In this document: positions 7,783-62,732 of the stretch, piece by piece | How the letters are laid out: every line of letters begins with the position of its first letter | Position numbering within the stretch: the stretch's first letter is position 1 | From: an uncultured Bacteroidota bacterium | GTDB lineage: Bacteria > Bacteroidota > Bacteroidia > Chitinophagales > Chitinophagaceae | Assembly (NCBI GenBank): GCA_903903635.1 | Contig: CAIUZK010000026.1 | Span: forward strand, 1 to 64,000 | Length of the DNA: 64,000 nt | Reading direction: 5' to 3' | The notes under the pieces: model-generated | Seen by the model: only the letters and a program-made list of their open reading frames with translations | Told to the model about the DNA's origin: nothing | Databases searched by the model: none | Program-made: the position numbers and the translations under genes

Positions 7783-10700
7783 ATGAGATACTTATATACT
7801 GTTGCAATTGCAATTCTACTATCATTTACTGCAAAAGGTCAATTCATGATCATTTCCAATTTTACTGGTACCAGCTTTTACGGTTCATTGGGAGTGACAG
7901 TTACTTCGATGGGTAGTGTTTCTACAGGTGGAGGTAGTTGCCTGGGTGCACCACTTGAATATTGGGCTGGTCAAACAGGTCCCGGAGCTTATATTTATAC
8001 AGTTAGTGCACCTGTATACCGAATCAGGGTGCATACCTGGGGTATTAACGGAGGTCCGTTAGGCTCTGGAGAATATTGTCAGATGTACATAAACGGAGCT
8101 ATTTATGCCCTGACTCCTGCAGACGTTACTTCCTACACGGAATGTTTACCAGGCGGTGGTCCTATGTATATTTCCGCTGGTCGGTGGATGGGCCCTGTTG
8201 GTCTGACTTCGAACTATAACGGTGGTGATTATATTATTAGTGTGTGTACCGGAATTTCGTCTTTTGAACTTTGGTGTAATGGTTCACTGTCTGGTGTTGC
8301 GTATCACGTTGAAGTGGATACTGTAAGACCACCAGCATGTGTACATGCCGTGAATAACAGCCCATGTATAGGAGATACACTGAAGCTGGATATGGAGGGT
8401 GACTCTACAGGCGCTACCTATAGCTGGACCGGGCCAGGTGGCTTTACCAGTACACTTCAAAATCCATTTATCTATCCATCTACATTCCCTGATTCGGGCT
8501 TGTATCATGTAATCAGGTATGCAGGTGTTGTGAATGATACCGACAGTACTTACGTTGTAATTCATCCGAAGCCGGTAGTGAACGTTACGAATAATTCACC
8601 TTTATGTTCTAATATTACCAGCACATTGCAATTGGGTGTAACTCCTGATTCTACAGGTGAGACTTTTTTATGGGTCGGGCCACCTATATCGGGTTTTACT
8701 TCTACCTTACAAAATCCGAACTTCACAACCTTTGTAGCGGCAGACACCGGTAATTACTGGGTATATGCAACAACACAATACGGTTGTAAGGATACAGGTC
8801 ATACCCATGTTTCAGTAGTTGACCCACCGCCAACACCGACGGTGTCTGATATGAACTATTGTCAGGGTGAAATATTTGTTCCTTTCACACTGGGTGGTAT
8901 TATTCCAGGAGATACTGTGTTATGGTATACTACACCAACAGGAGGCTTTAGCTCTACTATTGCAATTACAGTTAATACCGCTGTGCCTGGTATGTATCAT
9001 GTATGGGTAAGTCAGAAACTGGGTCAATGTGAAAGTGGAAGGGGAACGGATTCAGTCAGAGTAACGACTACACCACCAGCTCCAGTTGTTACCGGACCAA
9101 TGCAGTATTGCCAGTTCATCGGGCCTATTGTTACGCTAACCGTTACTACAACACCGAGTGGGGTTGCGAGGTGGTATACAATGGCGACCGGAGGATCATT
9201 TACCCTTGCTCAACCCTATATTAATGTAAATGCTGCAGGCGTACACAATTATTGGGTAAGCCAGATAGACTCAGGTTGCGAAGGACCAAGGACACCGGTT
9301 ACGATTACTATTCATCCAAAACCAGCGCCACCTATTATTACGCAAACACCATGGTGTCAGTTCAGAACACCTGGTCCTGTATCAGGAGTGCCAAGCGGAA
9401 CAGGGGACCAACTGTTATGGTATGGTCCGGGCGTTACTGCGGGATCAATAGTGGCACCTACACCAGGCACGTTCGTTGCACCGGATACGATTAAGTATTA
9501 TGTTACCGAGACAACTATTTATGGATGTGTGAGTGATAGTACTCTTGATGTAGTGGTTATTAAAGTTAAGCCACCTATTCCGGTAACAAAGGATATTTCT
9601 TATTGTCAGCATGATATTGCCAAACCATTGAACTGGCTTGCAGACAGCATTGCTACATCACACCTTAACTGGTACTATCATGGCACTTCTTTAAACCCAA
9701 CTCCTATTCCGGTTACTGATACACTTCCCGGTACATATACATGGTATGTAAGCCAGACAGTACCAAACAATGTCACCGGATGCGAAGGCGACAGTGCATC
9801 GGTGAGTGTGAGAATTGTGTATAAACCGGTCTTCGGAATTCAGGTAAGTTCACCATTCGTATGTCAGTTTGATTCAATTAAATTATCTTATTGTTGTGGT
9901 CCAACGTTGTTTGCTCCGGGATATTTGTGGACATTACCTGCAGGTGCAATAGCGGTAGCGCATACGAGCATTTATGACTCATCAATAATGGTTCAGTTTG
10001 ATTCGGCAAATCAGAATAATTATGTTATTCTGAGGGCCAGTGATGACAGCAACTTCTGCGCAGGTTATGATACTGTCCGTATTAAAGTGGTTAAACAACC
10101 GGATATGGCCACCTATACTAAACCTGATGTATGCCTTGGCGATACAGTTCAATTAGGTCTGGCAAATATCTCTCCTGATGCGTTCGCTTACTATTGGTAT
10201 ATCGACAGTGTGCCAATGTCCAGTTCTACTGCAATAAGAATGATATCTCACAATTCGCACAGTGGCGGGCCATATACCATTAGTTGGGTAGATAGCGGTA
10301 AGCATGTGATAACCATTACTTCTACAACAATAGAAGGATGTAAATCCATGCCGGCATATGATTCAGTAAATGTTCATACAATGCCGGATGCATCGTTTAT
10401 TATACTGGGAGTTGATTCGTTAAGCAAATTCGGAGATAAATTCTGCCTTGAAGACAGTGTTCAGTTCTCGGCCAATAAAATCAATTACAGGTATTCATAT
10501 GAATGGTCTCCTGCACACTATTTCGATAACCTGAATACACCGGTTATCTTTGGAAAAATGGAGAGTGAAAATAGTCTTATTACCCTTAAGGTAACCGATC
10601 CGTTTGGGTGTTATGCCACTACAAGCCAACTGATAAAACCAGCAACCTGTTGTGCAGTAACCTTCCCGGATGCATTCACCCCTAATGGTGATGGTAAGAA

Positions 10701-10929
10701 TGATGTTTTCCGTCCTATTTTCCCTGGAGGTAGTTTCCACAGGTTCCATAAGTTCCAGATTGTAAATCGTTGGGGTGCATTAATGTTTGATGGAGGTAAT
10801 AGCAATACATCATGGGATGGTACTTTAAATGGTGTGCCACAGGATATGGGTGTTTACTTTTATTACATCAAGTATGATTGCGGAGGGGCAACTGTTGAAA
10901 CTAAGGGAGATGTTACTTTGATCAGGTAA
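7783..10929 (+). CDS. Secreted multi-Ig-like surface protein with CHU_C C-terminal domain; tandem paralog of 3664-7497
   Basis: Long stretches nearly identical to the preceding protein (MQYCQFIGP, PWCQFRTPGPV, YGCVSDS.LDVVVIKVKPP, CCAVTFPDAFTPNGDGKNDVFRPIFP); distinct N-terminus; signal peptide MRYLYTVAIAILLSFTAKGQ. Confidence 0.9.
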   Translation: MRYLYTVAIAILLSFTAKGQFMIISNFTGTSFYGSLGVTVTSMGSVSTGGGSCLGAPLEYWAGQTGPGAYIYTVSAPVYRIRVHTWGINGGPLGSGEYCQMYINGAIYALTPADVTSYTECLPGGGPMYISAGRWMGPVGLTSNYNGGDYIISVCTGISSFELWCNGSLSGVAYHVEVDTVRPPACVHAVNNSPCIGDTLKLDMEGDSTGATYSWTGPGGFTSTLQNPFIYPSTFPDSGLYHVIRYAGVVNDTDSTYVVIHPKPVVNVTNNSPLCSNITSTLQLGVTPDSTGETFLWVGPPISGFTSTLQNPNFTTFVAADTGNYWVYATTQYGCKDTGHTHVSVVDPPPTPTVSDMNYCQGEIFVPFTLGGIIPGDTVLWYTTPTGGFSSTIAITVNTAVPGMYHVWVSQKLGQCESGRGTDSVRVTTTPPAPVVTGPMQYCQFIGPIVTLTVTTTPSGVARWYTMATGGSFTLAQPYINVNAAGVHNYWVSQIDSGCEGPRTPVTITIHPKPAPPIITQTPWCQFRTPGPVSGVPSGTGDQLLWYGPGVTAGSIVAPTPGTFVAPDTIKYYVTETTIYGCVSDSTLDVVVIKVKPPIPVTKDISYCQHDIAKPLNWLADSIATSHLNWYYHGTSLNPTPIPVTDTLPGTYTWYVSQTVPNNVTGCEGDSASVSVRIVYKPVFGIQVSSPFVCQFDSIKLSYCCGPTLFAPGYLWTLPAGAIAVAHTSIYDSSIMVQFDSANQNNYVILRASDDSNFCAGYDTVRIKVVKQPDMATYTKPDVCLGDTVQLGLANISPDAFAYYWYIDSVPMSSSTAIRMISHNSHSGGPYTISWVDSGKHVITITSTTIEGCKSMPAYDSVNVHTMPDASFIILGVDSLSKFGDKFCLEDSVQFSANKINYRYSYEWSPAHYFDNLNTPVIFGKMESENSLITLKVTDPFGCYATTSQLIKPATCCAVTFPDAFTPNGDGKNDVFRPIFPGGSFHRFHKFQIVNRWGALMFDGGNSNTSWDGTLNGVPQDMGVYFYYIKYDCGGATVETKGDVTLIR

Positions 10930-11063: not shown

Positions 11064-11230
11064 ACTAAGGGCATGTAAGAAAATAAAGGTTACTTTTTAT
11101 CTTGTTCTTTTCCATTTTTGCTTCGTTGTAAAAGTCTTTAAATAGCTAACTATTCGCAGATTTTACGCCTTGCAAAAATGAAAAATAACTGCGTCAAAAA
11201 GCAACCTTTATTTCCTTACAAGCCCTAAGT
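11064..11230. repeat. Long-hairpin interspersed repeat, copy A
   Basis: Ends ACTAAGGGC...GCCCTAAGT; imperfect complementarity over ~83-bp arms; core TTCGTTGTAAAAGTCTTTAAATA...TATTCGCAGATTTTACGCCT shared with copies at 26304 and 41590. Confidence 0.8.
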
Positions 11231-11284: not shown

Positions 11285-13744
11285 ATGAAAAGAAAAGCAA
11301 TTATTTCGGTTTGTATGGTGCTGGCAAGTTTCTGCCAGGTGAATGCAAAAGGGCCGGCAGATGGTAACAACAGGCTTTATTTTATTGAAAATAGCGGTCA
11401 GGTTGTTGATCAGTTTGCTCATTCCAGAAATGATATTCAATTTGTGTTGCGGGGCAAGGGTGTAAACTTGTTTGTAGGTAATGGCCAGTTACATTATCAG
11501 TTTAGCCACGTGTCGAACAATAGCGTTTTGCCGGATGATAATAACAAATATGAGAAAATTGAGCGCCCTGCCGGAAGTACTGGTAAAGAATTGGGTTATG
11601 ATAAACTACCGGGAAAGGAATTTACCAGTTACAGACTTGATGTGGAGTTGGCAGGGGCAAATCAGGATGCAACGGTTATTAAAGAGCAGATGCTTCCTTA
11701 TTATGAAAATTACTACCTGCCCGGTTGCCCTGCAGGTGGCGCTACAGCTCATACTTTTGAAAAAATAACCTACAAAAATATTTACCCGTCAATTGATTGG
11801 GTGATTTATATTAAAGACAACAAACTGGAGCATGAATTTGTTATAGGCAAGGGTGGAGATGCAGCCAATATTAAACTGAAATACAGTGGTCAGGATAAAA
11901 TGAAAATAAACCAGGATGGCAGTTTTACCGTATCAACCCCCATGGGGAGTGTTACTGAGCATGCGCCATTCAGTTATAATTCAACCGGCGTTATATTTTC
12001 TTCGTACAACCTTGACAAGAGTGTGCTGGGTTATACAGTGAACGGGAAAGGCAGTATGGTTATTGATCCGGGTATATTGTGGGCTACGTATTATGGGCCA
12101 GATTCTCTGGCTACCGATTTTTATGCCTGTGTAAGTGATCATGCAGGTAGTATTTATGCCGGTGGCCTTACCTGGGGAGGAACAAGTATTGCCACATCGG
12201 GAAGCTACCAATCGGTTTATGGTGGCGGATGTGATGCATTTCTGGTAAAATTTGATACTTCAGGTAACAGGATATGGTCTACCTATTATGGTGGTACCGG
12301 CGGAGATTGGGGTATAGGAGTATCGTGCGATAAAGACGGGAATGTTTACATGGCCGGGGTAACACAGGGGAGTTTGACCGGGATAGCAACAGCAGGTTGC
12401 CAGCAGCCTGTGTATGGTGGTGGTTTGGAAGATGGATTCCTGGTGAAGTTTACAGCGAATGGTATCAGGAAATGGGGCACCTACCTGGGTGGTACCGGTG
12501 CCGAAATACCAGGGGCGGTAGTATGTGATACAATAGGGCATGTGTATGTAGGTGGATTTACAACTGGCAGCACTACTAATATATCAACACCTGGCAGCTT
12601 CCTGCCTGCAACCGGCGGTGGTTATGAAGATTACCTGGTGCAGTATGATACCGCAGGGGTAAGGCAATGGGGTACCTATTATGGAGGTAGTGGGGCTGAA
12701 TATGGAGGTAGTGTTTGCTCAGATGGCGTTAATGTTTTTATGACCGGATATACTTCAAGTACTACCGGGATGACTACCCTGGGATGTTACCAGCCTGTAT
12801 ATGGAGGTTCCAATGATGTATTTGTAGCCAAATTTGACAACACAGGCCTTCGTAACTGGGGTACATATTATGGCGGTGCGGCAAGCGAAACCGCCGGTGG
12901 TATAACCTGCGATTATGGCGGTAATATTTTGATTCTGGGAGCCACCAATAGTGATGCGGGCATTGCCAGTCCGGGATGTTTTCAGGCGGTAAGGGGCGGA
13001 GGTACGGATGCGTTTCTGCTGCAACTGGAGCCTGAGTTGGGTGGCCGCTTATGGTGTACCTATTATGGCGGACCAGGTGCCGAAAACATAGATATGAGCC
13101 GCATTACAGCCGATGATTCGGGTAATGTATACATTATAGGTTCTACTACCAGCCTTACAGGAATAGCCACAATAGTTGGTTGGCAGACTGGTTATGGCGG
13201 TGGCGCAAATGACGGATTCTTTGCCAAGTTCACCGGTTCAGGCAACGAAAAATGGAGTACTTACTATGGCGGTGTGGGTGATGAAATGGCCAAGGGGCTG
13301 ACCTTTGATGCCCATTGCGTGTATATGTGCGGTAAAACAACCAGCAATAACAATATAGCCACTGCGGGCGCATTTCTGCCTACTATTCCCGATCCGGCGG
13401 CATCTACCTACTATTATGGTTTTCTTGCCAGGGTAGGGGTAATAGATACTCCGGATATCACTCTTTATACCGGCACTGAGCCAGCGGCAATGAACTTCGC
13501 AGTTTTCCCGAACCCCAATAACGGATCGTTTGTGCTTGCGGGCACTGTGCATGGCGTACAGGGCAACCTGCAGATTACGGTAACTGATGCAGCAGGAAGG
13601 GTAGTAATGACTGATCATGCTGCTATTATTGGCAGTGTAATAAACAAGTCAATATCTTTTGAACCTGAAATGTCCGCCGGGGTTTATTTTCTCAATCTGA
13701 AATGCGACGGGGTAGGGAAAACCCTGAAACTTGTGAAAGAATAA
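11285..13744 (+). CDS. SBBP-repeat beta-propeller surface protein with T9SS type-A sorting domain
   Basis: Repeated WGTYYGGTGAE...DxxGNVYxxGxT motifs; C-terminal FAVFPNPNNGSFVLAG...AAGRVVM...GVYFLNLKCDGVGKTLKLVKE; N-terminus NRLYFIENSGQVVDQ typical of SBBP proteins. Confidence 0.88.
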   Translation: MKRKAIISVCMVLASFCQVNAKGPADGNNRLYFIENSGQVVDQFAHSRNDIQFVLRGKGVNLFVGNGQLHYQFSHVSNNSVLPDDNNKYEKIERPAGSTGKELGYDKLPGKEFTSYRLDVELAGANQDATVIKEQMLPYYENYYLPGCPAGGATAHTFEKITYKNIYPSIDWVIYIKDNKLEHEFVIGKGGDAANIKLKYSGQDKMKINQDGSFTVSTPMGSVTEHAPFSYNSTGVIFSSYNLDKSVLGYTVNGKGSMVIDPGILWATYYGPDSLATDFYACVSDHAGSIYAGGLTWGGTSIATSGSYQSVYGGGCDAFLVKFDTSGNRIWSTYYGGTGGDWGIGVSCDKDGNVYMAGVTQGSLTGIATAGCQQPVYGGGLEDGFLVKFTANGIRKWGTYLGGTGAEIPGAVVCDTIGHVYVGGFTTGSTTNISTPGSFLPATGGGYEDYLVQYDTAGVRQWGTYYGGSGAEYGGSVCSDGVNVFMTGYTSSTTGMTTLGCYQPVYGGSNDVFVAKFDNTGLRNWGTYYGGAASETAGGITCDYGGNILILGATNSDAGIASPGCFQAVRGGGTDAFLLQLEPELGGRLWCTYYGGPGAENIDMSRITADDSGNVYIIGSTTSLTGIATIVGWQTGYGGGANDGFFAKFTGSGNEKWSTYYGGVGDEMAKGLTFDAHCVYMCGKTTSNNNIATAGAFLPTIPDPAASTYYYGFLARVGVIDTPDITLYTGTEPAAMNFAVFPNPNNGSFVLAGTVHGVQGNLQITVTDAAGRVVMTDHAAIIGSVINKSISFEPEMSAGVYFLNLKCDGVGKTLKLVKE

Positions 13745-26303: not shown

Positions 26304-26466
26304 TTAGGAACGATGACGAAATAACTCCCACCATCTTACTTGTTCTATTCCATTTTTATTTCGTTGTAAAAGTCTTAAAATAATTCATTATTCGCAGATT
26401 TTACGCCTCACAAAAAAGAAATATAACTTCGCAATATGGTGGAACTTATTTCATCAACGTTCCTTA
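26304..26466. repeat. Long-hairpin interspersed repeat, copy B
   Basis: TTAGGAACGATGACGAAATAACTCCCACCAT...ATGGTGGAACTTATTTCATCAACGTTCCTTA; near-identical to the copy at 41590. Confidence 0.9.
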
Positions 26467-40559: not shown

Positions 40560-40582
40560 TTAACTTGCTAAATTATAAGGAT

Positions 40583-41503
40583 ATGACCATCCTGAATACA
40601 TTCAGAATTACGGCCTCAATGGCAATTTTATTTGCCGGGACCGCTAGTTATGCCCAGCCAGGCAGCACAACCGACCCATCCATTTCGGGTACAGGTTATC
40701 CTGGAGTAAAGGCCGACTGGCTGCCATCGAAGACTCCGGATGGAGCCTACGACCGTGTTCCGCATTACAGTACTCCAATACAATGGCAGCACCTTCGTGA
40801 AGATGATATCTTGTGGAAAAAACGTGTTTGGCGAGAGATAGATACGCGTGAAAAACAAAACGTAGGATTCCGCTATACTGGTGATGAAAATTCCGGTGGT
40901 GGTATGTTCATAGAAATATTGCTGGATGGAATTAAGAGGGGTAAGATCAAGGCATACAGTAGCTTTACTGATGATCGTTTTACAACTGTTATGACCAAAG
41001 AGGAAGTAATGGAGCAGATCGCAGGAAAGATTGATACAGTAACTATGATCGATCCGGTATCTGGTAATGAAATTGTAAAGTACATTAAGAAAGACTTCAG
41101 ACCTGAAACTATTCAGAGCTACAGGATCAAGGAAGACTGGATATTTGATCGCAACGAAGGCAAGATGATTGTTCGTATTGTTGGTATTGCTCCGGTAAGA
41201 GATGTAATTGTAGAAGGCCAGTTCCGTGGTCAGCAGGCCATGTTCTGGTTGCATTATCCGGATATTCGTGGTCTTTTGGCTCAATATGAGGTATACAATC
41301 CGGAAAATGATGTAGCCCGCTACACCTGGGATGAATTCTTTGAAAGCCGCAAGTTCTCCAGCAAAATTACCAAGATGAGCAATCCATACCAGGCTGATTT
41401 CAAGGAACTGGGAAATGGTATGAGCCCAATGGAAACTTTGTATGAAAGCCAGCATGCCGCTGAAGAGATCTTCAACAAAGAGCATGATATGTGGGTGTAC
41501 TAA
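40583..41503 (+). CDS. gldN: Gliding motility/T9SS protein GldN
   Basis: DDILWKKRVWREIDTREKQN...VIVEGQFRGQQAMFWLHYPDIRGLLAQYEVYNPENDVARYTWDEFFESRKFSSKI; ATG at 40583 likely. Confidence 0.92.
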   Translation: MTILNTFRITASMAILFAGTASYAQPGSTTDPSISGTGYPGVKADWLPSKTPDGAYDRVPHYSTPIQWQHLREDDILWKKRVWREIDTREKQNVGFRYTGDENSGGGMFIEILLDGIKRGKIKAYSSFTDDRFTTVMTKEEVMEQIAGKIDTVTMIDPVSGNEIVKYIKKDFRPETIQSYRIKEDWIFDRNEGKMIVRIVGIAPVRDVIVEGQFRGQQAMFWLHYPDIRGLLAQYEVYNPENDVARYTWDEFFESRKFSSKITKMSNPYQADFKELGNGMSPMETLYESQHAAEEIFNKEHDMWVY

Positions 41504-41590: not shown

Positions 41591-41752
41591 TAGGAACGAT
41601 GATGAAATAACTCCCACCATCTTACTCGTTCTATCCCATTTTTATTTCGTTGTAAAAGTCTTTAAATAATTCATTATTCGCAGATTTTACGCCTCATAAA
41701 AAAGAAATATAACTTCGCAATATGGTGGAACTTATTTCATCAACGTTCCTTA
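41590..41752. repeat. Long-hairpin interspersed repeat, copy C
   Basis: TTAGGAACGATGATGAAATAACTCCCACCAT...ATGGTGGAACTTATTTCATCAACGTTCCTTA; nearly identical to copy B. Confidence 0.9.
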
Positions 41753-52250: not shown

Positions 52251-55200
52251 ATGAAGAAAGTCTATTTTTCTCTATTGATGGCATGTTTTAGCATACTTAC
52301 GCTAAACGCTATCGCGCAAACAACGACGTATAGTACCCCGGGGGCCTATACATTCACTTGCGGGTCCGGCTATTCGGCCGTTACCATTGATATGGCCGGA
52401 GCACAGGGTGGCGCTTCCGGAGCTGGCGCACCTGGAGGTAAGGGCGGCCGAGTACAGGCTACACTTACCGTATCTGCGGGGCAGGTGTTGTACATCAACG
52501 TGGGTGGCGCAGGAACTGCATATAGCTATTGCTCTGCAAGAGCTGGCGGGGCCAATGGCGGCGGTACCGGTTATGGATACGGCGGCGGCGGTGGCGGTAT
52601 GTCCGACATCCGTAAAGCATCCGGAGCATTTTCTTCAACCAATGAATACCTGGTTGCCGGCGGTGGCGGTGGCGCAGGTTATAATTATGGCAACAATACA
52701 GAGCAGGGCGGCGATGGTGGCGGCCTTATAGGTGGTGTAGGTTATCAGGGTAGCCCTGGCGCACCAACCCCATCATTATGCGGATCTGGCGGAACCCAGA
52801 CTGCTGGTGGCTCTGGTGCAACCAGTTATGGTACACCTGCAGGAACTTTCGGTCAGGGAGGAAATTGCACAGGTGGCCAATGTTATTCAGGCGGCGGCGG
52901 CGGCGGCTGGTATGGTGGCGGTACCGGAGCATATGGCGGCGGCGGCGGCGGTTCCTCGAATCTTGCCGGTACCGGTGTGCTTAGCGCTACTACAACTCCT
53001 GCTTACCAGTCAGGTAATGGTTTTGTAAGTATTACTCCGTTACCTCCTACGGTTACAGCAGCTCCTTCATCACTTGCATTCGGGGCGGTTTCGGTATCTA
53101 CTACATCAGCGCCAATGATTACCAATCTTACCGGTATCGCTTTAACAGGTGTTGCGCTTACCCTTACTCCTCCGGCGAATTTCCTTATTTCATTGGATGG
53201 TAGTACCTGGAGTTCAACACCGTTAACTTATACGTATGTTGGAAGTACATTTTCTCAAATACTTTTTGTAGAATTTAATCCGACAGCGATTACTTCATAT
53301 GCCGGTAACCTGGCAATATCAGGCGGCGGTCTTGCTGCAACCGTAAATGTGCCTTTAAGCGGTACTGGTACCAACCCATGTTCAGGTACACCTACTGCCG
53401 GCGCTGCTACCATCAACGGAACAACAACAGCTTCTGGAAACAGTAGTACCAATTTTACATTGAATGTGCCAAGTGCAACTGTAGGTGGTGGTATCACATA
53501 CCAGTGGCAGGTATCAACTACTTCTTCAACAGGCCCATGGACAAATATCGGTGGCGCCAATACGCAATCTTATGTTTACTCAGGTCTGGCAGGCAACAGT
53601 TGGTTCCAGTGTGTGGTAAGTTGTGGCGCTTCTTCGGCTACATCAGGTACAGTATCAGCAACATTTACTATGCCTGGGTCTTCATGTACACCAGTTTATA
53701 TGTACAATTGCTCCAGCTATCCGATGAGTTGCAGTATCAATTCATTAATAGGATTTGCAGGATCAATTTCGGATCCAGGAGCATGTGGACCAAATTATGT
53801 GGATAATACTGGTTCTATGAATGTAACACTTAAGGGTGGTACGACCTACAGTATTACCTATGGTCTTTCCACATCTTATTACAGTTCATTTGCAGCTCAG
53901 GTATGGATAGACTTTAATGATAATGGTGTAATGGAATCTTCAGAAACAGTTGGTGGTTTTGCACAAGGAGCATATAGCGTAACTACACCGGTCGGCACTA
54001 TTACACTTCCTGCAGGCGCTGCTCCAGGTGTTCATCGTATGAGAATTGAAGGTGTTTATGCGCCTACAAGCTATAGTGAGCCGAACTATCCAAGTATGAC
54101 AGGATGTCCGACCTCTTCTTATTATTACGGAAATACAAGGGATTATAAAGTTATTATTCCTCCTCCAACAGGATCGCTTGCTGCAACCAGTGTAAGTCCG
54201 TTTGGGAATGTTACTGTGGGTACAAGTTCGGTGCCTGTGGCATATACATCTTTAACCGGGACTACCCTGACTCCAGGTGTTGGTTTGCTTTCAGTTACAG
54301 CGCCTGCCAATTACCAGGTTTCTACAACAGGAAGTACATGGAGTAACAGCGTTTTTGTACCTTATATAGGAGGTACTTTGACTAGTAAGAATGTATATGT
54401 TCAGTTTAACCCGACTGCAGTAAGTTCATATACCGGAAACGTTACCGTTACAGGTGGTGGAATACCAGCAACAGTAAACGTACCTGTTTCAGGAAGTGGC
54501 GTAGCTACAGCATGTTCTGGCGCACCTACACCAGGCGCGGCATCTGTTACTCCAACATCGGGCGGTGGTGCTACAACATTTACACTTAGCCTTCCCGGCG
54601 TTTCAGCAGTTGGTGGATTAATGTTCCAGTGGCAGTACTCTACAGACGGAGGTACTACCTGGAATAATATTGCCAATGGAATTTATGCCACAGCCATCTT
54701 TACCGGAATATTTGCCACTACGCAATTCAGGTGCCAGGTTAGCTGCGGCACAGGCGCTGCGGTAAATTCTACACCGGTAACAGCAACCTATTCAGCAGGG
54801 GCTATGGCTGCTTCAAGTTGTACACCTACATTCTCTTCGGCAAGTGCAGCATGTTCATCTTATTCAATGTGGATGAGGATACAGTCATTAATTGGTACAT
54901 CCGGTTCGATAGCTGATGCTACTGCTTGTACCGGTACCGGATATGAGAATCTGACAGCTTCTTACACAGTTACATTGAGTTCAAATACTACCTACTCATG
55001 TACCTTAAACACGGGTGGTTCTTACCCAAGTTCTATGGGTGCACAGGTATGGATAGATTTTAATAATAACGGAATTTTCGAATCAACTGAAAGTGTGGGT
55101 GGTTATGGATTAAGCACAACCAGCAGTACTTCTCCTGTTATTACATTGACAATACCTGGAGGTGCTCCTTCAGGCAGTTTCCGCATGAGGGTAGTTGGTA

Positions 55201-58200
55201 ACTACAACTGTTGCGGTGCAACAACTTATCCGGGCATGAACCCATGTCCAACAACAGCAATTACTTATGGTGATGTTCGTGATTATACCTGCGTAATACT
55301 TGGTGGCGCTCTTCCATGTACCGGGGTTCCAACTGCTGGTATAGTAAGTGCAACACCAATAGCAAGTTGTAGCGCATTTACTGCAAATATGTTTAATGTT
55401 GGTGAGCCATCAGCACCTGGATCAGGTCTTACTTACCAATGGCAGACATCAAGTAGTCCAACAACCGGCTTTACAAATATTGCCGGAGCAACAAATGCAA
55501 GTTATCTGCCTGCAATTTCATCTATAGGAACTGTATACTTCAGAGACAGTGTAAGATGTGTACCAAGCGCTACAGCCGCAGTATCTTCATCACTTGGTCT
55601 GACACTGAATGCAGCGCCAACTGCTATTACAGGAACTGCATCAATATGTGCCGGAACTGTGACCACTTTATCATCTACACCAGGTGGCGGAACATGGAGC
55701 AGCAGCAATCCGGCCGCAGTTACCATTAATGCAGCTACCGGTGTTATCACTGGTGTTAGCACCGGAACTTCAACTATTACTTATGTATTGTCTACAGGCT
55801 GTTTCAGCACCAGAGTTGTAACAGTTAATCCGCAGCCATCTGCAATAACAGGTTCAGGTACTGTGTGCGGAAGCCTTACAACCGCATTGAGCTCTTCACC
55901 AGGTGGTGGTACATGGACCAGTTCCAATACCTCACTAGCCACAGTTGATCCTGCTACCGGAATAGTAACGGGCGGAGCATCAGGTAATCCTACAATTGTT
56001 TATACATTACCTACAGGTTGTTCTTCATCATTCCCGATGACTGTAAATGCATTATCGGCTATTACCGGTACTCCCAGTATGTGTATGAGTTACACAACAG
56101 TGCTGGCTGATGCTACACCAGGAGGTACCTGGAGCAGCAGTACAACCGGTGTTGCTACTGTTAATACTACAGGTGTGGTTACGAGTGTTTCGATAGGTAC
56201 AACAACAATTTCATATTCCATAGCTTCAACAGGTTGTACTGCAACCGTACTGGTGGCTGTTACACCTCCTCCAAGCGTATATAGTATGACTGGTGGCGGT
56301 TCTTACTGCTCAGGTACTACAGGAGGTGTTATAGTAGGTCTTACCGGATCGAATGCAGGTATGAGTTATACCTTATTTAATGGTACAACACCTGTATCGT
56401 CATTGATAGGTGCAGGTTTCGCATTCAATTTCCCTGCCGTATTTGGTGCAGGAATTTATACAGTAGTTGCAGGAAGTGGTACGCCATGCGCAACTAATAT
56501 GACTGGTACATCTACTGTTGTTATCAATCCGTTACCAACTCCATATGTTGTTTCAACATCTGGTGGTGGCGCTTATTGCGCTGGTGGTACTGGCGTTCAC
56601 ATTTACCTGAATTCATCTCAGATTGGTATCAACTACCAGTTATTCAATGGTACTACTCCGGTTGGTGGTCCTATATCAGGTACAAGTGCTGTACTTGACT
56701 TCGGCCTTGTTACCGCCGGTACTTACACAATAACCGGTTATAATACATCAACAACATGTACAGGGCCAATGGCTAATTCAGTAACGGTATCCATCAATCC
56801 ATTACCAACACCATTTACAGTAACACCTTCAGCAGGTGGCTATTGTGCAGGTGGTGCAGGTGTTACTGTTGGATTGAGCGGTTCACAGACTGGTGTAACT
56901 TATCAGTTACTGCTTTCTGGCGTTCCTGTTACAGGTGCAGTTCAGGCAGGTACAGGCTCAGCGCTTGTATTCGGTCTGATGACAGTAGGCGGAACATATA
57001 CAGTTCAGGCTACTAACAATACAACTGGTTGTTCAACTATTATGGGTGGATCATCTGTAATCACTGTTAATCCTTATCCAACTGTATTCTCAGTAACCGG
57101 TGGTGGTGGTATCTGCCCTTCAGGCGCTGGTGTTAGTGTTGGTCTTAATGGTTCTCAGGCAGGTGTGAATTATCAGTTATACAGAGGTGGTGTGTTGGTT
57201 ACCGGATCAGGCTATAACCTGCCAGGAACCGGCGCGGCACTTGATTATGGTTTACAAACAACTCCGGGCGCGTATACAGTTGTCGCTACAAATGGCGGAT
57301 CTGGTTGCGCAAGCAATATGTCATTGAGTGCAAATGTTGTACTTAATCCTGCTCCAACCTTGTTCTCAGTTACACCTACTACAGGTAGCTATTGTACAGG
57401 TGGCATAGGTGTGCATGTAGGTTTGAGCGGTTCTGTAACCGGTACCAACTATACTTTGTATAACGGTGCTACCATTTATGGCGCAGCAAGTGGTACAGGT
57501 TCTGCGGTTGATTTCGGATTAATGGTTGCTGGTGGTACTTATACTGTAGTTGCTCAGATTGTAACTACAGGATGTACTGGTAGTATGACCGGTAGTTCAG
57601 TAATAAATGTAAATCCATTACCTACTGCTTTCAATGTAACAGTTGCCGGTGGCGGCGCTTATTGTGCCGGTGGTGCAGGCCAGGTAATCGGTCTTTCAGG
57701 TTCAACTTCAGGTATCAATTACCAGTTGTTCAGAGGTGGTGTTGCAGTAGGAACAGCAGTTGCCGGTACAGGTTCTGCAATCAGTTTCCCTGCACAGACA
57801 ATAGCCGGATCTTATACTGTAGTAGGTACAAATACAGTTACTCTTTGTACTAACGCAATGACCGGTAGTGCTTCCATTACAGTTCTTCCAACACCAGTTA
57901 CTTATACAATAACCGGTGGCGGTGGTTTCTGCTCTGGCGGTACAGGTTTGCACATTGGTCTTGCCGGTTCTGATATAGGTATCAATTATCAGTTATACAA
58001 TACAGGTCTTGCCGTTGGCGCGCCGGTAGCTGGTCTTGGCGGGGTGCTTGATTTTGGGCTATTCACTACAGCCGGTACTTATACAGTTATAGGTACTAAT
58101 GGTACTACTTCATGTACAAGTACAATGACGGGAAGTCCGGTAATCAGTATCAATCCGTTACCTCCAGTTAATATTGTTTTACCAGGCGGAAGCACAAGTT

Positions 58201-61200
58201 TCTGCGCAGGTGGAACAGGTGTTGCTATTGGCCTTAATGGCTCAGTGACCGGTATCAATTATCAATTATACAATGGCACAACTGCTGTAGGCGCTCCGGT
58301 TTCAGGAACTACAGGTTCTGCTTTATCATTCGGATTACAGACAGCAGCAGGTACTTATACTGCAGTTGCAACCAATCCGGCAACTACATGTTCAATTAAT
58401 ATGACAGGTAGCACAGTAGTAATAGTTAAACCATTGCCTGTAGCATATAATGTAACAGGTGGCGGCGGTTATTGCTCAGGTGGTACCGGAATGCATGTTA
58501 ACCTGAGCAATTCTGTTCCAGGTGTTAAGTATCAGTTGTTCAACACTTCAGGCGCTGTTACCGGTGCATTACTTAATGGTACAGGCTTTGCTCTTGACTT
58601 CGGTCTGATTACTGTACCAAGTGTTTATACTGTTGTTGCAACAGATACAACTACTTTGTGTACTAATAACATGACCGGAAGTGTGACCATTTCTGTCAAT
58701 CCATTGCCAACCGCATTTGTTATCGGTGGTGGTGGTAACTATTGTGCAGGAACAGGTGGTACTCATATTACATTAAGCAACTCAACTGTAGGTATCAACT
58801 ATCAGTTGATGATTGGCACAACGCTTTCCGGCGCACCTGTTTCAGGTACCGGCAGCGCTCTTGATTTCGGTTTACGCACAGCAGCAGGTGTATATACTGT
58901 GGTAGCTACCAACGCTACAACAGGTTGCACCAGCAATATGACTGGTTCTGCTACAATAGCTATCAATCCTTTACCAACTGCATTCAATGTAATTGGTGGT
59001 GGTAACTATTGTCCAGGTGGACCAGGAGTACATGTAGGTTTGAGTGGTTCAGTAACTGGTACAGTATATCAGTTATACAATGGTGCAAGTATCGTTGGAG
59101 CTCCAATATCCGGTACAGGCGCAGCTCTTGACTTCGGTTATGTTACTGCAACAGGTACTTATACTGTGGTTGGAACTAACCTTGGTACATCCTGCTCTGG
59201 CAGCATGACAGGCAGCGTGGTTGTGGGTGTATCTCCATTACCGGTTGTTTATAATGTTACCGGTACAAGTAACTATTGCCCAGGCGGCGCCGGAAGCCAT
59301 GTTGGTTTGAGCGGCTCATCAACCGGTGTTTCTTATCAGTTATTTAAAGGCGGTATTATCTCAGGCCCTGCATTTACAGGTACTGGTTCCGCTTTGGATT
59401 TTGGTTTACAGACTACAGGTACTTATACAGTTATTGCAACAGGGGTATCTACTACTTGTTCCAATAACATGAATGGAAGCGCAGTAATAGGCATCAGCCC
59501 ATTACCTACTTTACATTCTGTAACCGGTGGCGGTAACTATTGCACCGGCGGTACCGGATTGCATGTAGGCCTGAACGGTTCGGATGCAAGTACATGGTAT
59601 CAGTTGTATAAGGGCTCTACCATGGTTGGTACTCCAATGGCAGGTACAGGGACTTCACTTGATTTCGGTTTACAAACTGCTCCTGGTGTTTATACAGTAA
59701 GTGCAAACAGTACATCAACTACATGTAGCAGCACAATGTCAGGAAGCGTAACAATCAGTACAATTCCATTGCCTTCAACATTTAGTGTATTAGGTGGTGG
59801 TAACTATTGCGCTGGCGGAGCAGGTGTTGATATTACATTAAGCGGTTCAGTTACCGGTGTAAATTATCAGCTATATAATGGTACTACTGCTGCAGGCAGT
59901 TCAGTATCAGGTTCTGGTTCTTCTATTGACTTCGGTATGCAGACAGCCGCAGGTACTTATACAGTAGTTGCTACTGACGGTACTACACTTTGTACAAACA
60001 ACATGACAGGTAGTGTAACTGTGGTTATCAACCCATTACCTACTCCATATGTTGTAACCGGCGGCGGTAATTTCTGCTCAGGTGGTACAGGCGTTCATGT
60101 AACGCTCGCAGGTTCTGATATTGGTACCACCTACCAGTTGTTCAATAGCGGTATCGCAGTGTCTGGTGCAATACCAGGTACTGGTTTTGTTCTTGACTTC
60201 GGTTTACAAACTGCAGCAGGTACTTATACTGTGGTTGGTACAAATGCTTCAACTACTTGTACCGGTAACATGACAGGCAGTGTAACAATAAATGTTAATC
60301 CATTACCAACAGCATATACTGTGTCTGGTTCAGGCAGCAGCTATTGTGCAGGTGGTGCAGGAATCGATGTCACATTAAGTGGTTCTGATATTGGCACCAA
60401 CTACCAGCTTTATAATGGCGCAAGTCCGGTAGGTGGCGCAGTTGCAGGCACAAGTGGCGCTATCGACTTCGGATATCGCACAGGTACAGGAACATATACA
60501 GTAATTGCTATTAACACATCTACTACATGTTCAGGTAGCATGACAGGCGCAGCGATTGTTGCTATCAGCCCGATGCCTATAGCTTATACAGTTACAGGCG
60601 GTGGTAGTTTCTGTAACGGATCAACCGGTGTTCATGTTGGTCTCAGCGGATCGAATACAGGCGTACTTTATCAGTTGTATCATGGTACTGCTCCGGTTGG
60701 ATCTTCAATTGCAGGAACAGGTGGTCCACTTGATTTCGGCGCTCAGACAGCAGCAGGTGGTTACTCAGTAGTAGCTACAAATACAGGTTCTACTTGTACC
60801 AATAACATGTCGGGTACTGTAACTATTACAGTTAACGCATTACCTGCACCATTCAACGTTACCGGTGGTGGTAATTTCTGTGCTACCGGTACAGGTGTAC
60901 CTGTTGGCTTAAGTGGTTCAATTTCAGGTAACTCATATCAGTTATACAAATCAGGAATCGCAGTTGGCAGTCCTTTGACAGGAACAGGTTCACTACTTGA
61001 TTTCGGATTGAAAACTGCTGCAGGCAACTATACCGTAATAGCTACCAACAGCACTACTACATGTTCTAACTACATGACTGGTACTGTTTCAGTAGGTGTA
61101 GATCCATTACCTGCTGCTTACAGTGTAACAGGTGGTGGTAACTATTGCCCGGGTGGTTCTGGTGTACATGTTGGTTTGGGTAATTCAGCAACCGGTACAA

Positions 61201-62732
61201 GCTACCAGTTGTACAGAGGAACTCTTGCAGCAGGAGCATCAATAGCCGGTACCGGTGGTGGTATAGATTTCGGAATGCAGAGTACACCAGGTACCTATAC
61301 GGTAATAGCAACAAATGGTACTACTTCATGTTCAAGCAACATGTCGGGTAGTGTAACAGTAGGTATTAATGCACTTCCTGCAGTTCATTCTGTGATCGGT
61401 GGCGGTACTTATTGTGCAGGTACAGGCGGTATACATATTGGTCTTGACGGATCAGATGCCGGTATCAGCTATCAGCCATATAATTCTTATTCTGCAACAG
61501 GTACTGCAGTTATCGGAACAGGTGGCCCGCTTGATATGGGTGCTGAAACTTCAACAGGAGTTTATACTGTATTGGCAACTGATTTGTCTACAGGATGCTC
61601 TAATAACATGAATGGTACAGCAACAGTAAGCGCTCACACTCCGGTTACTCCTTCAGTTAATGTTACAACAGGTGTAGGCGATACATTGTGCTCAGGTTCA
61701 TTGACTACATTCACTACAGCTACAGTTAATGGTGGTACATCACCATCTTATCAATGGACTGTGAACGGTGTTGTTACAGGTACTGGTAATCATTACACTT
61801 ATATCCCTCTGAACGGAGATGTGATAGGAGTGACACTTACCAGCAATGCACAGTGCGCTACTCCTGCAATTGTAAACAATTCAATGGATGTAGTAGTAAA
61901 TAATGTTCAGACTCCATCTGTATCAATAGCTGCTAATCCGGGTACAGAAGTTTGTGCCGGTACATCAGTTAACTTTACAGCTACTCCATCAGCAGGTGGC
62001 ACAGTGCCAACTTACTCTTGGCTCAGGAACGGTGCTAATGTTGGTTCATCACCAGTTTACAGCTACATTCCTGCAAACGGCGATCTGATCTATTGTATCA
62101 TGACCAGCAACTACCGTTGCCGTACTGCAAATACTGCAAACAGCAATCAGTTCAACATGGTGGTAGATCTGGCAGTTCAGCCAAATGTAAGCATCAGTGT
62201 TAACCCAGGTACACACATTGCTGCAGGTCAAACTGCTGTAATGACTGCATCAGTTCTTAATGGCGGACCTACTCCTTCTTACCAGTGGTATGTTAATGGT
62301 ATCCCTGCAAGCGGAGCTACTTACTCGGTATTTGTAAGCAGCAACCTTGTTGACGGAGATTCAGTAAGCTGCCAGGTAGTTAGCAGTGGTGGTTGCGCAG
62401 GATTAACAGGTGCTAATTCTGTTATCATCCATGTATCTGGTGTAGGTGTTAATCCGGTTACAATTTCCGGCAGCGATGTTAAGCTGGTTCCAAACCCTAA
62501 CAACGGATTGTTCACAATCAAGGGTAACATTGGCACAATAGCTGATCAGGAAGTTTCACTTGAAGTTACCAATATGCTGGGCCAGGTAGTTTATACAACT
62601 AAGGTTATAGCACGTAACGGTGATATCAATGAAGTGATCAGGTTATCTAATACGCTTGCAAATGGTATGTATATTCTGAATATGCACACTGAAACAGGCA
62701 ACCAGGTATTCCACATGGTAATTGAGCAATAA
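52251..62732 (+). CDS. Giant (3493 aa) secreted repeat protein with polyglycine N-terminal domain, GEVED-like modules, ~20 tandem ~89-aa repeats and T9SS type-A sorting domain
   Basis: Signal peptide MKKVYFSLLMACFSILTLNAIAQ; repeats PTxFxVTGGGNYCAGGxGVHVGLSGSxxGxxYQLYNG...GTGxxLDFGLQTAAGTYTVVATNxxTxCxxNMTGSVTIxINPL; C-terminus VKLVPNPNNGLFTIKGNIG...NGMYILNMHTETGNQVFHMVIEQ. Confidence 0.93.
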   Translation: MKKVYFSLLMACFSILTLNAIAQTTTYSTPGAYTFTCGSGYSAVTIDMAGAQGGASGAGAPGGKGGRVQATLTVSAGQVLYINVGGAGTAYSYCSARAGGANGGGTGYGYGGGGGGMSDIRKASGAFSSTNEYLVAGGGGGAGYNYGNNTEQGGDGGGLIGGVGYQGSPGAPTPSLCGSGGTQTAGGSGATSYGTPAGTFGQGGNCTGGQCYSGGGGGGWYGGGTGAYGGGGGGSSNLAGTGVLSATTTPAYQSGNGFVSITPLPPTVTAAPSSLAFGAVSVSTTSAPMITNLTGIALTGVALTLTPPANFLISLDGSTWSSTPLTYTYVGSTFSQILFVEFNPTAITSYAGNLAISGGGLAATVNVPLSGTGTNPCSGTPTAGAATINGTTTASGNSSTNFTLNVPSATVGGGITYQWQVSTTSSTGPWTNIGGANTQSYVYSGLAGNSWFQCVVSCGASSATSGTVSATFTMPGSSCTPVYMYNCSSYPMSCSINSLIGFAGSISDPGACGPNYVDNTGSMNVTLKGGTTYSITYGLSTSYYSSFAAQVWIDFNDNGVMESSETVGGFAQGAYSVTTPVGTITLPAGAAPGVHRMRIEGVYAPTSYSEPNYPSMTGCPTSSYYYGNTRDYKVIIPPPTGSLAATSVSPFGNVTVGTSSVPVAYTSLTGTTLTPGVGLLSVTAPANYQVSTTGSTWSNSVFVPYIGGTLTSKNVYVQFNPTAVSSYTGNVTVTGGGIPATVNVPVSGSGVATACSGAPTPGAASVTPTSGGGATTFTLSLPGVSAVGGLMFQWQYSTDGGTTWNNIANGIYATAIFTGIFATTQFRCQVSCGTGAAVNSTPVTATYSAGAMAASSCTPTFSSASAACSSYSMWMRIQSLIGTSGSIADATACTGTGYENLTASYTVTLSSNTTYSCTLNTGGSYPSSMGAQVWIDFNNNGIFESTESVGGYGLSTTSSTSPVITLTIPGGAPSGSFRMRVVGNYNCCGATTYPGMNPCPTTAITYGDVRDYTCVILGGALPCTGVPTAGIVSATPIASCSAFTANMFNVGEPSAPGSGLTYQWQTSSSPTTGFTNIAGATNASYLPAISSIGTVYFRDSVRCVPSATAAVSSSLGLTLNAAPTAITGTASICAGTVTTLSSTPGGGTWSSSNPAAVTINAATGVITGVSTGTSTITYVLSTGCFSTRVVTVNPQPSAITGSGTVCGSLTTALSSSPGGGTWTSSNTSLATVDPATGIVTGGASGNPTIVYTLPTGCSSSFPMTVNALSAITGTPSMCMSYTTVLADATPGGTWSSSTTGVATVNTTGVVTSVSIGTTTISYSIASTGCTATVLVAVTPPPSVYSMTGGGSYCSGTTGGVIVGLTGSNAGMSYTLFNGTTPVSSLIGAGFAFNFPAVFGAGIYTVVAGSGTPCATNMTGTSTVVINPLPTPYVVSTSGGGAYCAGGTGVHIYLNSSQIGINYQLFNGTTPVGGPISGTSAVLDFGLVTAGTYTITGYNTSTTCTGPMANSVTVSINPLPTPFTVTPSAGGYCAGGAGVTVGLSGSQTGVTYQLLLSGVPVTGAVQAGTGSALVFGLMTVGGTYTVQATNNTTGCSTIMGGSSVITVNPYPTVFSVTGGGGICPSGAGVSVGLNGSQAGVNYQLYRGGVLVTGSGYNLPGTGAALDYGLQTTPGAYTVVATNGGSGCASNMSLSANVVLNPAPTLFSVTPTTGSYCTGGIGVHVGLSGSVTGTNYTLYNGATIYGAASGTGSAVDFGLMVAGGTYTVVAQIVTTGCTGSMTGSSVINVNPLPTAFNVTVAGGGAYCAGGAGQVIGLSGSTSGINYQLFRGGVAVGTAVAGTGSAISFPAQTIAGSYTVVGTNTVTLCTNAMTGSASITVLPTPVTYTITGGGGFCSGGTGLHIGLAGSDIGINYQLYNTGLAVGAPVAGLGGVLDFGLFTTAGTYTVIGTNGTTSCTSTMTGSPVISINPLPPVNIVLPGGSTSFCAGGTGVAIGLNGSVTGINYQLYNGTTAVGAPVSGTTGSALSFGLQTAAGTYTAVATNPATTCSINMTGSTVVIVKPLPVAYNVTGGGGYCSGGTGMHVNLSNSVPGVKYQLFNTSGAVTGALLNGTGFALDFGLITVPSVYTVVATDTTTLCTNNMTGSVTISVNPLPTAFVIGGGGNYCAGTGGTHITLSNSTVGINYQLMIGTTLSGAPVSGTGSALDFGLRTAAGVYTVVATNATTGCTSNMTGSATIAINPLPTAFNVIGGGNYCPGGPGVHVGLSGSVTGTVYQLYNGASIVGAPISGTGAALDFGYVTATGTYTVVGTNLGTSCSGSMTGSVVVGVSPLPVVYNVTGTSNYCPGGAGSHVGLSGSSTGVSYQLFKGGIISGPAFTGTGSALDFGLQTTGTYTVIATGVSTTCSNNMNGSAVIGISPLPTLHSVTGGGNYCTGGTGLHVGLNGSDASTWYQLYKGSTMVGTPMAGTGTSLDFGLQTAPGVYTVSANSTSTTCSSTMSGSVTISTIPLPSTFSVLGGGNYCAGGAGVDITLSGSVTGVNYQLYNGTTAAGSSVSGSGSSIDFGMQTAAGTYTVVATDGTTLCTNNMTGSVTVVINPLPTPYVVTGGGNFCSGGTGVHVTLAGSDIGTTYQLFNSGIAVSGAIPGTGFVLDFGLQTAAGTYTVVGTNASTTCTGNMTGSVTINVNPLPTAYTVSGSGSSYCAGGAGIDVTLSGSDIGTNYQLYNGASPVGGAVAGTSGAIDFGYRTGTGTYTVIAINTSTTCSGSMTGAAIVAISPMPIAYTVTGGGSFCNGSTGVHVGLSGSNTGVLYQLYHGTAPVGSSIAGTGGPLDFGAQTAAGGYSVVATNTGSTCTNNMSGTVTITVNALPAPFNVTGGGNFCATGTGVPVGLSGSISGNSYQLYKSGIAVGSPLTGTGSLLDFGLKTAAGNYTVIATNSTTTCSNYMTGTVSVGVDPLPAAYSVTGGGNYCPGGSGVHVGLGNSATGTSYQLYRGTLAAGASIAGTGGGIDFGMQSTPGTYTVIATNGTTSCSSNMSGSVTVGINALPAVHSVIGGGTYCAGTGGIHIGLDGSDAGISYQPYNSYSATGTAVIGTGGPLDMGAETSTGVYTVLATDLSTGCSNNMNGTATVSAHTPVTPSVNVTTGVGDTLCSGSLTTFTTATVNGGTSPSYQWTVNGVVTGTGNHYTYIPLNGDVIGVTLTSNAQCATPAIVNNSMDVVVNNVQTPSVSIAANPGTEVCAGTSVNFTATPSAGGTVPTYSWLRNGANVGSSPVYSYIPANGDLIYCIMTSNYRCRTANTANSNQFNMVVDLAVQPNVSISVNPGTHIAAGQTAVMTASVLNGGPTPSYQWYVNGIPASGATYSVFVSSNLVDGDSVSCQVVSSGGCAGLTGANSVIIHVSGVGVNPVTISGSDVKLVPNPNNGLFTIKGNIGTIADQEVSLEVTNMLGQVVYTTKVIARNGDINEVIRLSNTLANGMYILNMHTETGNQVFHMVIEQ
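56265..61645 (+). repeat. ~20 tandem protein-coding repeats of ~89 aa (~267 bp)
   Basis: Manual partitioning of the translation into 20 units, most starting P[TVA]x[FY]xVxGGG and ending NPLP, usually two Cys per unit. Confidence 0.88.

Follow-up and report, generated by a model that had tools for sequence, protein, structure and literature searches.

The MITEs described in bacteria that are palindromic over their whole length include ERIC/IRU, Correia/NEMIS, RUP, and YPAL/RU-2 (PMC2229807, PMC10969869). Long stem-loop transcripts are predicted for palindromic MITEs, and the orientation of ERIC affects mRNA outcome (PMC2229807, PMC10969869). The usual view is that MITE hairpins are a by-product of inverted ends. 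In the IS5 family (IS1031 group) and in PIF/Harbinger elements, inverted ends are accompanied by a 3-bp target duplication of TNA/TWA type.

Here we describe a 157-bp palindromic element found in three copies (A, B, and C) in the window, the whole 64,000-nucleotide stretch of DNA that was analyzed, which comes from a freshwater member of the Bacteroidetes, order Chitinophagales, having a genome of 5.27 Mb. The element resembles ERIC/IRU, Correia/NEMIS, RUP, and YPAL/RU-2 in that it is <200 bp, contains no gene, has inverted ends and target duplications, and is found in high copy number between genes. It differs from these families, which usually have 5'-TA-3' termini, in its 3-bp TWA-type duplication and in the retention of the 157-bp length across species. 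Another Bacteroidetes MITE, BrickBuilt of Porphyromonas gingivalis (PMC4596501), was compared by description. It carries a minisatellite and many copies of the present element have a 32-bp insert that can repeat in tandem, but the BrickBuilt repeats are 23 nt and its duplications vary in length. The element is a non-autonomous palindromic MITE-class element that is probably moved in trans. Judged from its sequences it appears to be a MITE of known kind with unusually good evidence that a strand-specific fold is under selection, and no report of hairpin covariation plus one-strand wobble tolerance for a MITE was found in the literature searched.

Three copies of a 157-bp palindrome in the window

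The features of the window are listed by coordinates, strand, and description.

11069..11225, minus strand (the best-folding strand): copy A, 157-bp palindromic element of subtype T2 (GGGCATGTAAG...)
11066..11068, strandless: left target-site duplication of copy A, TAA
11226..11228, strandless: right target-site duplication of copy A, TAA
11128..11167, plus strand: conserved core of copy A, which holds AAAAGT^CTT, the IS110-family insertion site in other copies
26307..26463, minus strand: copy B, subtype T1 (GGAACGATGACG...), 157 bp, TTA/TTA duplication
41593..41749, minus strand: copy C, subtype T1, 157 bp, TTA/TTA duplication

All three copies are at the positions given by an earlier sequence-only reading (chance matches to the core in shuffled sequences were 0 to 0.05). 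The span which that reading assigned to copy A, 11064-11230, does contain the element plus a few flanking bases, the true limits being 11069-11225. No ORF of 80 or more residues is present within the 157 bp. Copy C is located downstream of gldN (40565-41503). The ORFs that flank copy A (7783-10929 and 11285-13744) have type IX-type tail domains, that of 11285-13744 falling just below the cut-off, and elsewhere in the window an ORF of 3493 aa (52251-62732) has GEVED and Ig-like domains plus a type IX secretion tail. Searches of Rfam gave no match in the window and none to the element above the gathering score (five copies, E<=1).

The genome contains three main subtypes of the same length. T1 (GGAACGATGA) accounts for the majority of the copies including B and C, and T2 (GGGCATGTAAG) is represented by copy A and three more copies. 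The third subtype is T3 (GTGACGATGA). Additional arm variants are found in other Bacteroidetes genomes, one of which is labelled Chitinophagaceae. The T1, T2, and T3 sequences align without gaps across all 157 positions. AAATAA/TTATTT is common to copies A, B, and C at positions 13-18/140-145, and the arm differences among them are largely paired changes. The ungapped alignment and the common AAATAA at 13-18 therefore identify the arms of copy A as diverged homologues rather than replacements. Hence, the statement of the earlier reading that the outer arms of A bear no relation to those of the other two copies is incorrect; they are colinear homologues.

Copy number, target-site duplications, and nested insertion

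Roughly 100 sites in this genome and its relatives have received a copy of the element. A genome-wide search with the core, as the sequence-only reading had proposed, found the extra copies it predicted. The core pattern (<=3 mismatches) gave at least 73 matches in the 5.27-Mb genome versus 0 for a reversed-pattern control, and the T1 end pattern gave 183 matches in the same genome. Homologues are carried by 27 of 35 genus-level genomes, and the copies per genome within the genus range from 0 to >49. A diverged relative of the element having a recognizable core was found in G037, a genome from another family of the same order (about 75 copies that are 155-160 bp long and flanked by TAA/TTA, the limits of which were set using the duplication as a criterion and thus do not provide an independent duplication count). 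Plasmid and phage collections contained no match to the element.

Target-site duplication was assayed using 98 complete 157-mers, 96 of which had readable flanks. Identical 3-bp flanks were present in 70 of these 96 copies, whereas shuffling of the left and right flanks gave a mean of 30 and a maximum of 44 (1000 shuffles). The matching flanks were mostly TAA (36) or TTA (28). At one locus (L117) a T3 copy is nested within a T4 copy, and deletion of the T3 copy plus one TAA gives an exact 157-bp T4 palindrome having arms that pair. The 3-bp duplications, the nested insertion, and the copy number bear out the suggestion of the earlier reading that this is a palindromic mobile element. It is short and non-coding and has terminal inverted repeats, target-site duplications, numerous copies, and signs of having moved, as expected of a MITE. 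ERIC elements are about 127 bp with TA termini, and thus the length and the TAA/TTA duplication exclude the element from that family. Integron attC sites were considered in view of the strand-specific hairpin, and the 3-bp duplications at scattered sites argue against these.

Many contigs of the G000 assembly (C12, C27, C102, C142, C155-C159, C171, C177, C190, and others) have ends that fall inside element copies. The assembly thus seems to be broken at the element, which would account for assembly breaks in these genomes.

Covariation along the length of the hairpin

The folding z score of copy A is -8.5 for the plus strand and -11.5 for the minus strand, the latter fold having an energy of -67.8 kcal/mol. 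The terminal inverted repeats consist of the outer 22-28 positions, which pair with the opposite end. Covariation was tested using our own R-scape-like implementation (FastTree, APC-corrected G statistic) on 82 non-redundant copies, with a phylogeny-aware null in which the parsimony substitutions were re-placed onto random branches. Ten of 11781 column pairs were significant at E <= 0.05, and all 10 are on the hairpin diagonal (2-156, 3-155, 11-147, 19-139, 20-138, 22-136, 31-127, 50-107, 52-105, and 77-82). A covariation test of this kind had been named in the earlier reading, and the outcome upholds the claim made there that the arms remain self-complementary while their sequences change. 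Four of the pairs (31-127, 50-107, 52-105, and 77-82) are internal and lie outside any 20-bp terminal repeat, and therefore matched terminal repeats alone are an insufficient explanation.

Pairing is not perfect. At 7/151 an A.A mismatch is the commonest state (52 of 82 copies) and has persisted uncorrected. Of the 41 own-genome copies read, 27 share two mismatches, which lie within positions 19-23 (CTCCC/GGAAC). As the commonest own-genome T1 lineage was amplified despite these two mismatches and many copies have unpaired inserts, perfect pairing is not strictly required.

Preference for the minus strand

The consensus fold has a free energy of -58.3 kcal/mol on the minus strand versus -27.1 kcal/mol on the plus strand. 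The minus strand was the more stable, by a mean of 16 kcal/mol, in 82 of 82 copies, which is a count of related copies rather than of independent events. The plus-strand consensus conceals the asymmetry in wobble counts, and mirrored pairs were used instead. Among single changes that break a strictly mirrored outer pair, a count in which structure prediction is not involved, 73 gave G.U on the minus strand versus 26 that gave A.C on that strand (p = 2.5e-6). The same count made with the minus-strand structure was 99 versus 33 (p = 7.5e-9). Slid-pair controls gave a non-significant skew in five of six cases, with the caveat that the +3 slide was significant. A plain mutational strand bias was rejected as the likely cause because the arm transitions are balanced overall (G>A 74 and C>T 75; T>C 56 and A>G 64); moreover, the G/C trend at unpaired sites is in the opposite direction. 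Of 45 copies of the G037 relative, 44 are likewise the more stable on the homologous strand (these also being related copies), and G.U outnumbers A.C by 128 to 37 cells, figures that are per-sequence counts only from what are probably mixed subfamilies.

Taken together, the phylogeny-controlled covariation over the whole length, the wobble tolerance of one strand, and the recurrence of the same strand in a second family indicate that the fold itself is probably selected rather than being a by-product of the ends. The hairpin under selection is probably that of one strand, either RNA or single-stranded DNA. Note that in DNA, too, the better mismatch is G.T, and thus the wobble data do not tell RNA from single-stranded DNA. 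No promoter-like sites were seen inside copy A. The earlier reading had suggested selection on a hairpin of about 160 nt, and the hairpin covariation together with the strand-specific wobble tolerance provide evidence for this.

Indications of arm-to-arm copying and the ordinary MITE alternative

The alternative that survives best is an ordinary MITE in which complementarity arises from the need of the transposase for matching ends plus arm copying by template switching or hairpin repair, with no selected RNA or single-strand structure. The matching ends and 3-bp duplications fit this picture, as do several properties of the arms. The paired changes of the outer arms cluster on branches at neighboring positions (40 versus 25.6 expected, p = 0.0005), and among the own-genome T1 copies the right arm was altered to match the left in two and the left to match the right in one. 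Compensatory changes are known to arise by template switching (PMC8794818). Hence, within-element copying from arm to arm is indicated to occur to some extent, and template switching probably supplies variation in the arms. However, template switching accounts for neither the strand asymmetry nor the A.A that persists at 7/151. Moreover, significant pairs such as 52-105 and 77-82 lie deep inside the element, arm copying alone cannot restrict wobble tolerance to one strand, and the same strand is favored in another family. For these reasons we consider an ordinary MITE unlikely.

The earlier reading had also proposed exchangeable arms. This holds only in part, insofar as arm-to-arm copying is indicated and a chimera exists (L152) that has a T4-type end on one side, a T1-type end on the other, and an intact TAA/TAA duplication, although the subtypes themselves are homologous, diverged forms of a single colinear element. 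A shorter family of palindromes of about 77 bp (GTGAARYTTTCAAAATAACTTCCGC...), flanked by TAA/TTA and sharing this end architecture, was found at L036 and L154, and the L152 chimera has one end from each family. The shared ends and the chimera suggest that a single machinery serves several cores. A coreless 55-bp derivative having both T1-type ends and TTA/TTA flanks is present at L143:2020-2075.

Search for the mobilizing enzyme

MITEs usually, though not always, have the same ends as an autonomous element that provides the transposase. A search of about 0.9 Mb of loci for paired ends plus target duplication yielded neither an autonomous element nor a transposase having the ends of the present element. 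The DDE_Tnp_1, DDE_Tnp_1_2, and Y1 genes of the genus had no matching ends beside them, and across the genus PF01609, PF13586, and PF01797 lacked both matching ends and any tie to copy number. Thus, although the element is like the IS5-family (IS1031 group) and PIF/Harbinger elements in duplication type and inverted ends, it differs in that no such transposase with matching ends was found, and the genomes that carry many copies lack PF13586. The autonomous partner may have been lost or may be unassembled in these fragmented genomes. Two candidates were rejected. The long end pair at L154 encloses apparent host genes (histidine-kinase-like and AAA-type ORFs, the translations of which were judged by eye), and L085, where DDE_Tnp_1 is followed by half an element, has only one end and a disrupted core.

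Y1 transposition is known to leave no target duplication. A REP/REPIN- or IS200/IS605-type element, in which a Y1 (RAYT) transposase acts on folded single strands, would account for a strand-specific hairpin, and Y1 transposases are encoded in 33 of the 35 genus genomes. However, the element has 3-bp duplications, is 157 bp rather than 20-40 bp, and its presence does not track Y1 genes: G018 has 11 copies and no Y1 match, whereas G012 and G013 have strong Y1 matches and no element. We regard this mode of transposition as very unlikely.

A host function as an alternative, and the proposed mode of spread

The copies are nearly all intergenic, with one of 57 inside an ORF, and the adjoining genes are unrelated to each other and occur in all arrangements (25 ++, 12 --, 12 -+, and 7 +-). 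The idea that the host retains the element as a structured RNA gene or cis-regulatory hairpin, for its effect near particular genes, would be in keeping with the stable fold, the strand preference, and the intergenic locations, but is hardly credible given the unrelated neighbors in every arrangement, the range of copy numbers within one genus, the target duplications, and the lack of an Rfam family match.

The explanation we favor, and judge likely, is a non-autonomous palindromic MITE that is mobilized in trans and for which the folded minus strand is part of its competence to spread. A transposase acting in trans, putatively of the DDE type, would make a 3-bp staggered cut and would recognize ends that contain AAATAA at positions 13-18. 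The folded minus strand, as RNA or single-stranded DNA, would help make a copy competent to spread, and changes that keep this strand paired (compensated or G.U) would survive. Some of the paired changes would be supplied by template switching or inverted gene conversion from arm to arm. Spread might also proceed via a folded, single-stranded intermediate, an RNA or DNA hairpin of about 157 nt formed by the minus strand, that is recognized by structure and then inserted at a 3-bp staggered cut, the sequence being free where the fold is kept; we put this forward as a tentative and somewhat doubtful possibility. The idea that a mobile element is recognized as a folded single strand can be put to the test with the present element.

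The core is a landing pad for an IS110-family element

An IS having subterminal inverted repeats interrupts the core at AAAAGT^CTT in eight or more of the own-genome copies. In the relative G020 a core-attached IS (L311) encodes a 401-aa IS110-family recombinase (PF01548, E 8.9e-14; PF02371, E 4.2e-19), and at the junction the IS end AGCAGT is joined to CTTTAAATAG. A recombinase with the DEDD and Transposase_20 domains joined to the core site places the IS in the IS110 family. The AAAAGT^CTT site contains the CT dinucleotide described for the bridge-RNA targets of IS110-family elements (PMC11208160). As REPs and QMITE2 are known IS110 targets (PMC1525189, PMC10969869), insertion in the core is a further case of known behavior. 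It resembles the targeting of QMITE2 of Coxiella and of REP palindromes by IS1111/IS110 elements in the use of one exact core site beside CT, but both the palindrome and the IS are different and the target here is AAAAGT^CTT. The element thus offers a natural site of insertion to an element of the IS110 family (bridge-RNA type). IS110-family insertions and related loci include L060, L062-L065, L067, L073-L080, L134, L153, and L311, and related IS copies are also found at other sites, mostly before CT.

Other inserts are present in the element. A 32-bp insert (CATGCCTTCGCTAAAGCTATGGCAGTTAATAA) is found at the same place in the 3' arm of many T1 copies, sometimes in tandem, its carriers including L034, L045, L048, L060, L075, and L162. 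Other copies hold GATAGAGCTGCGCTCGTGCCCTTGCGGGCATGCC or a CCCGAAAGCTTTCGGG loop as modular inserts. At L080:1214-1289 a T1 copy contains a group II intron fragment (RF00029, E 3.6e-10), and a copy bearing an IS end is directly beside it.
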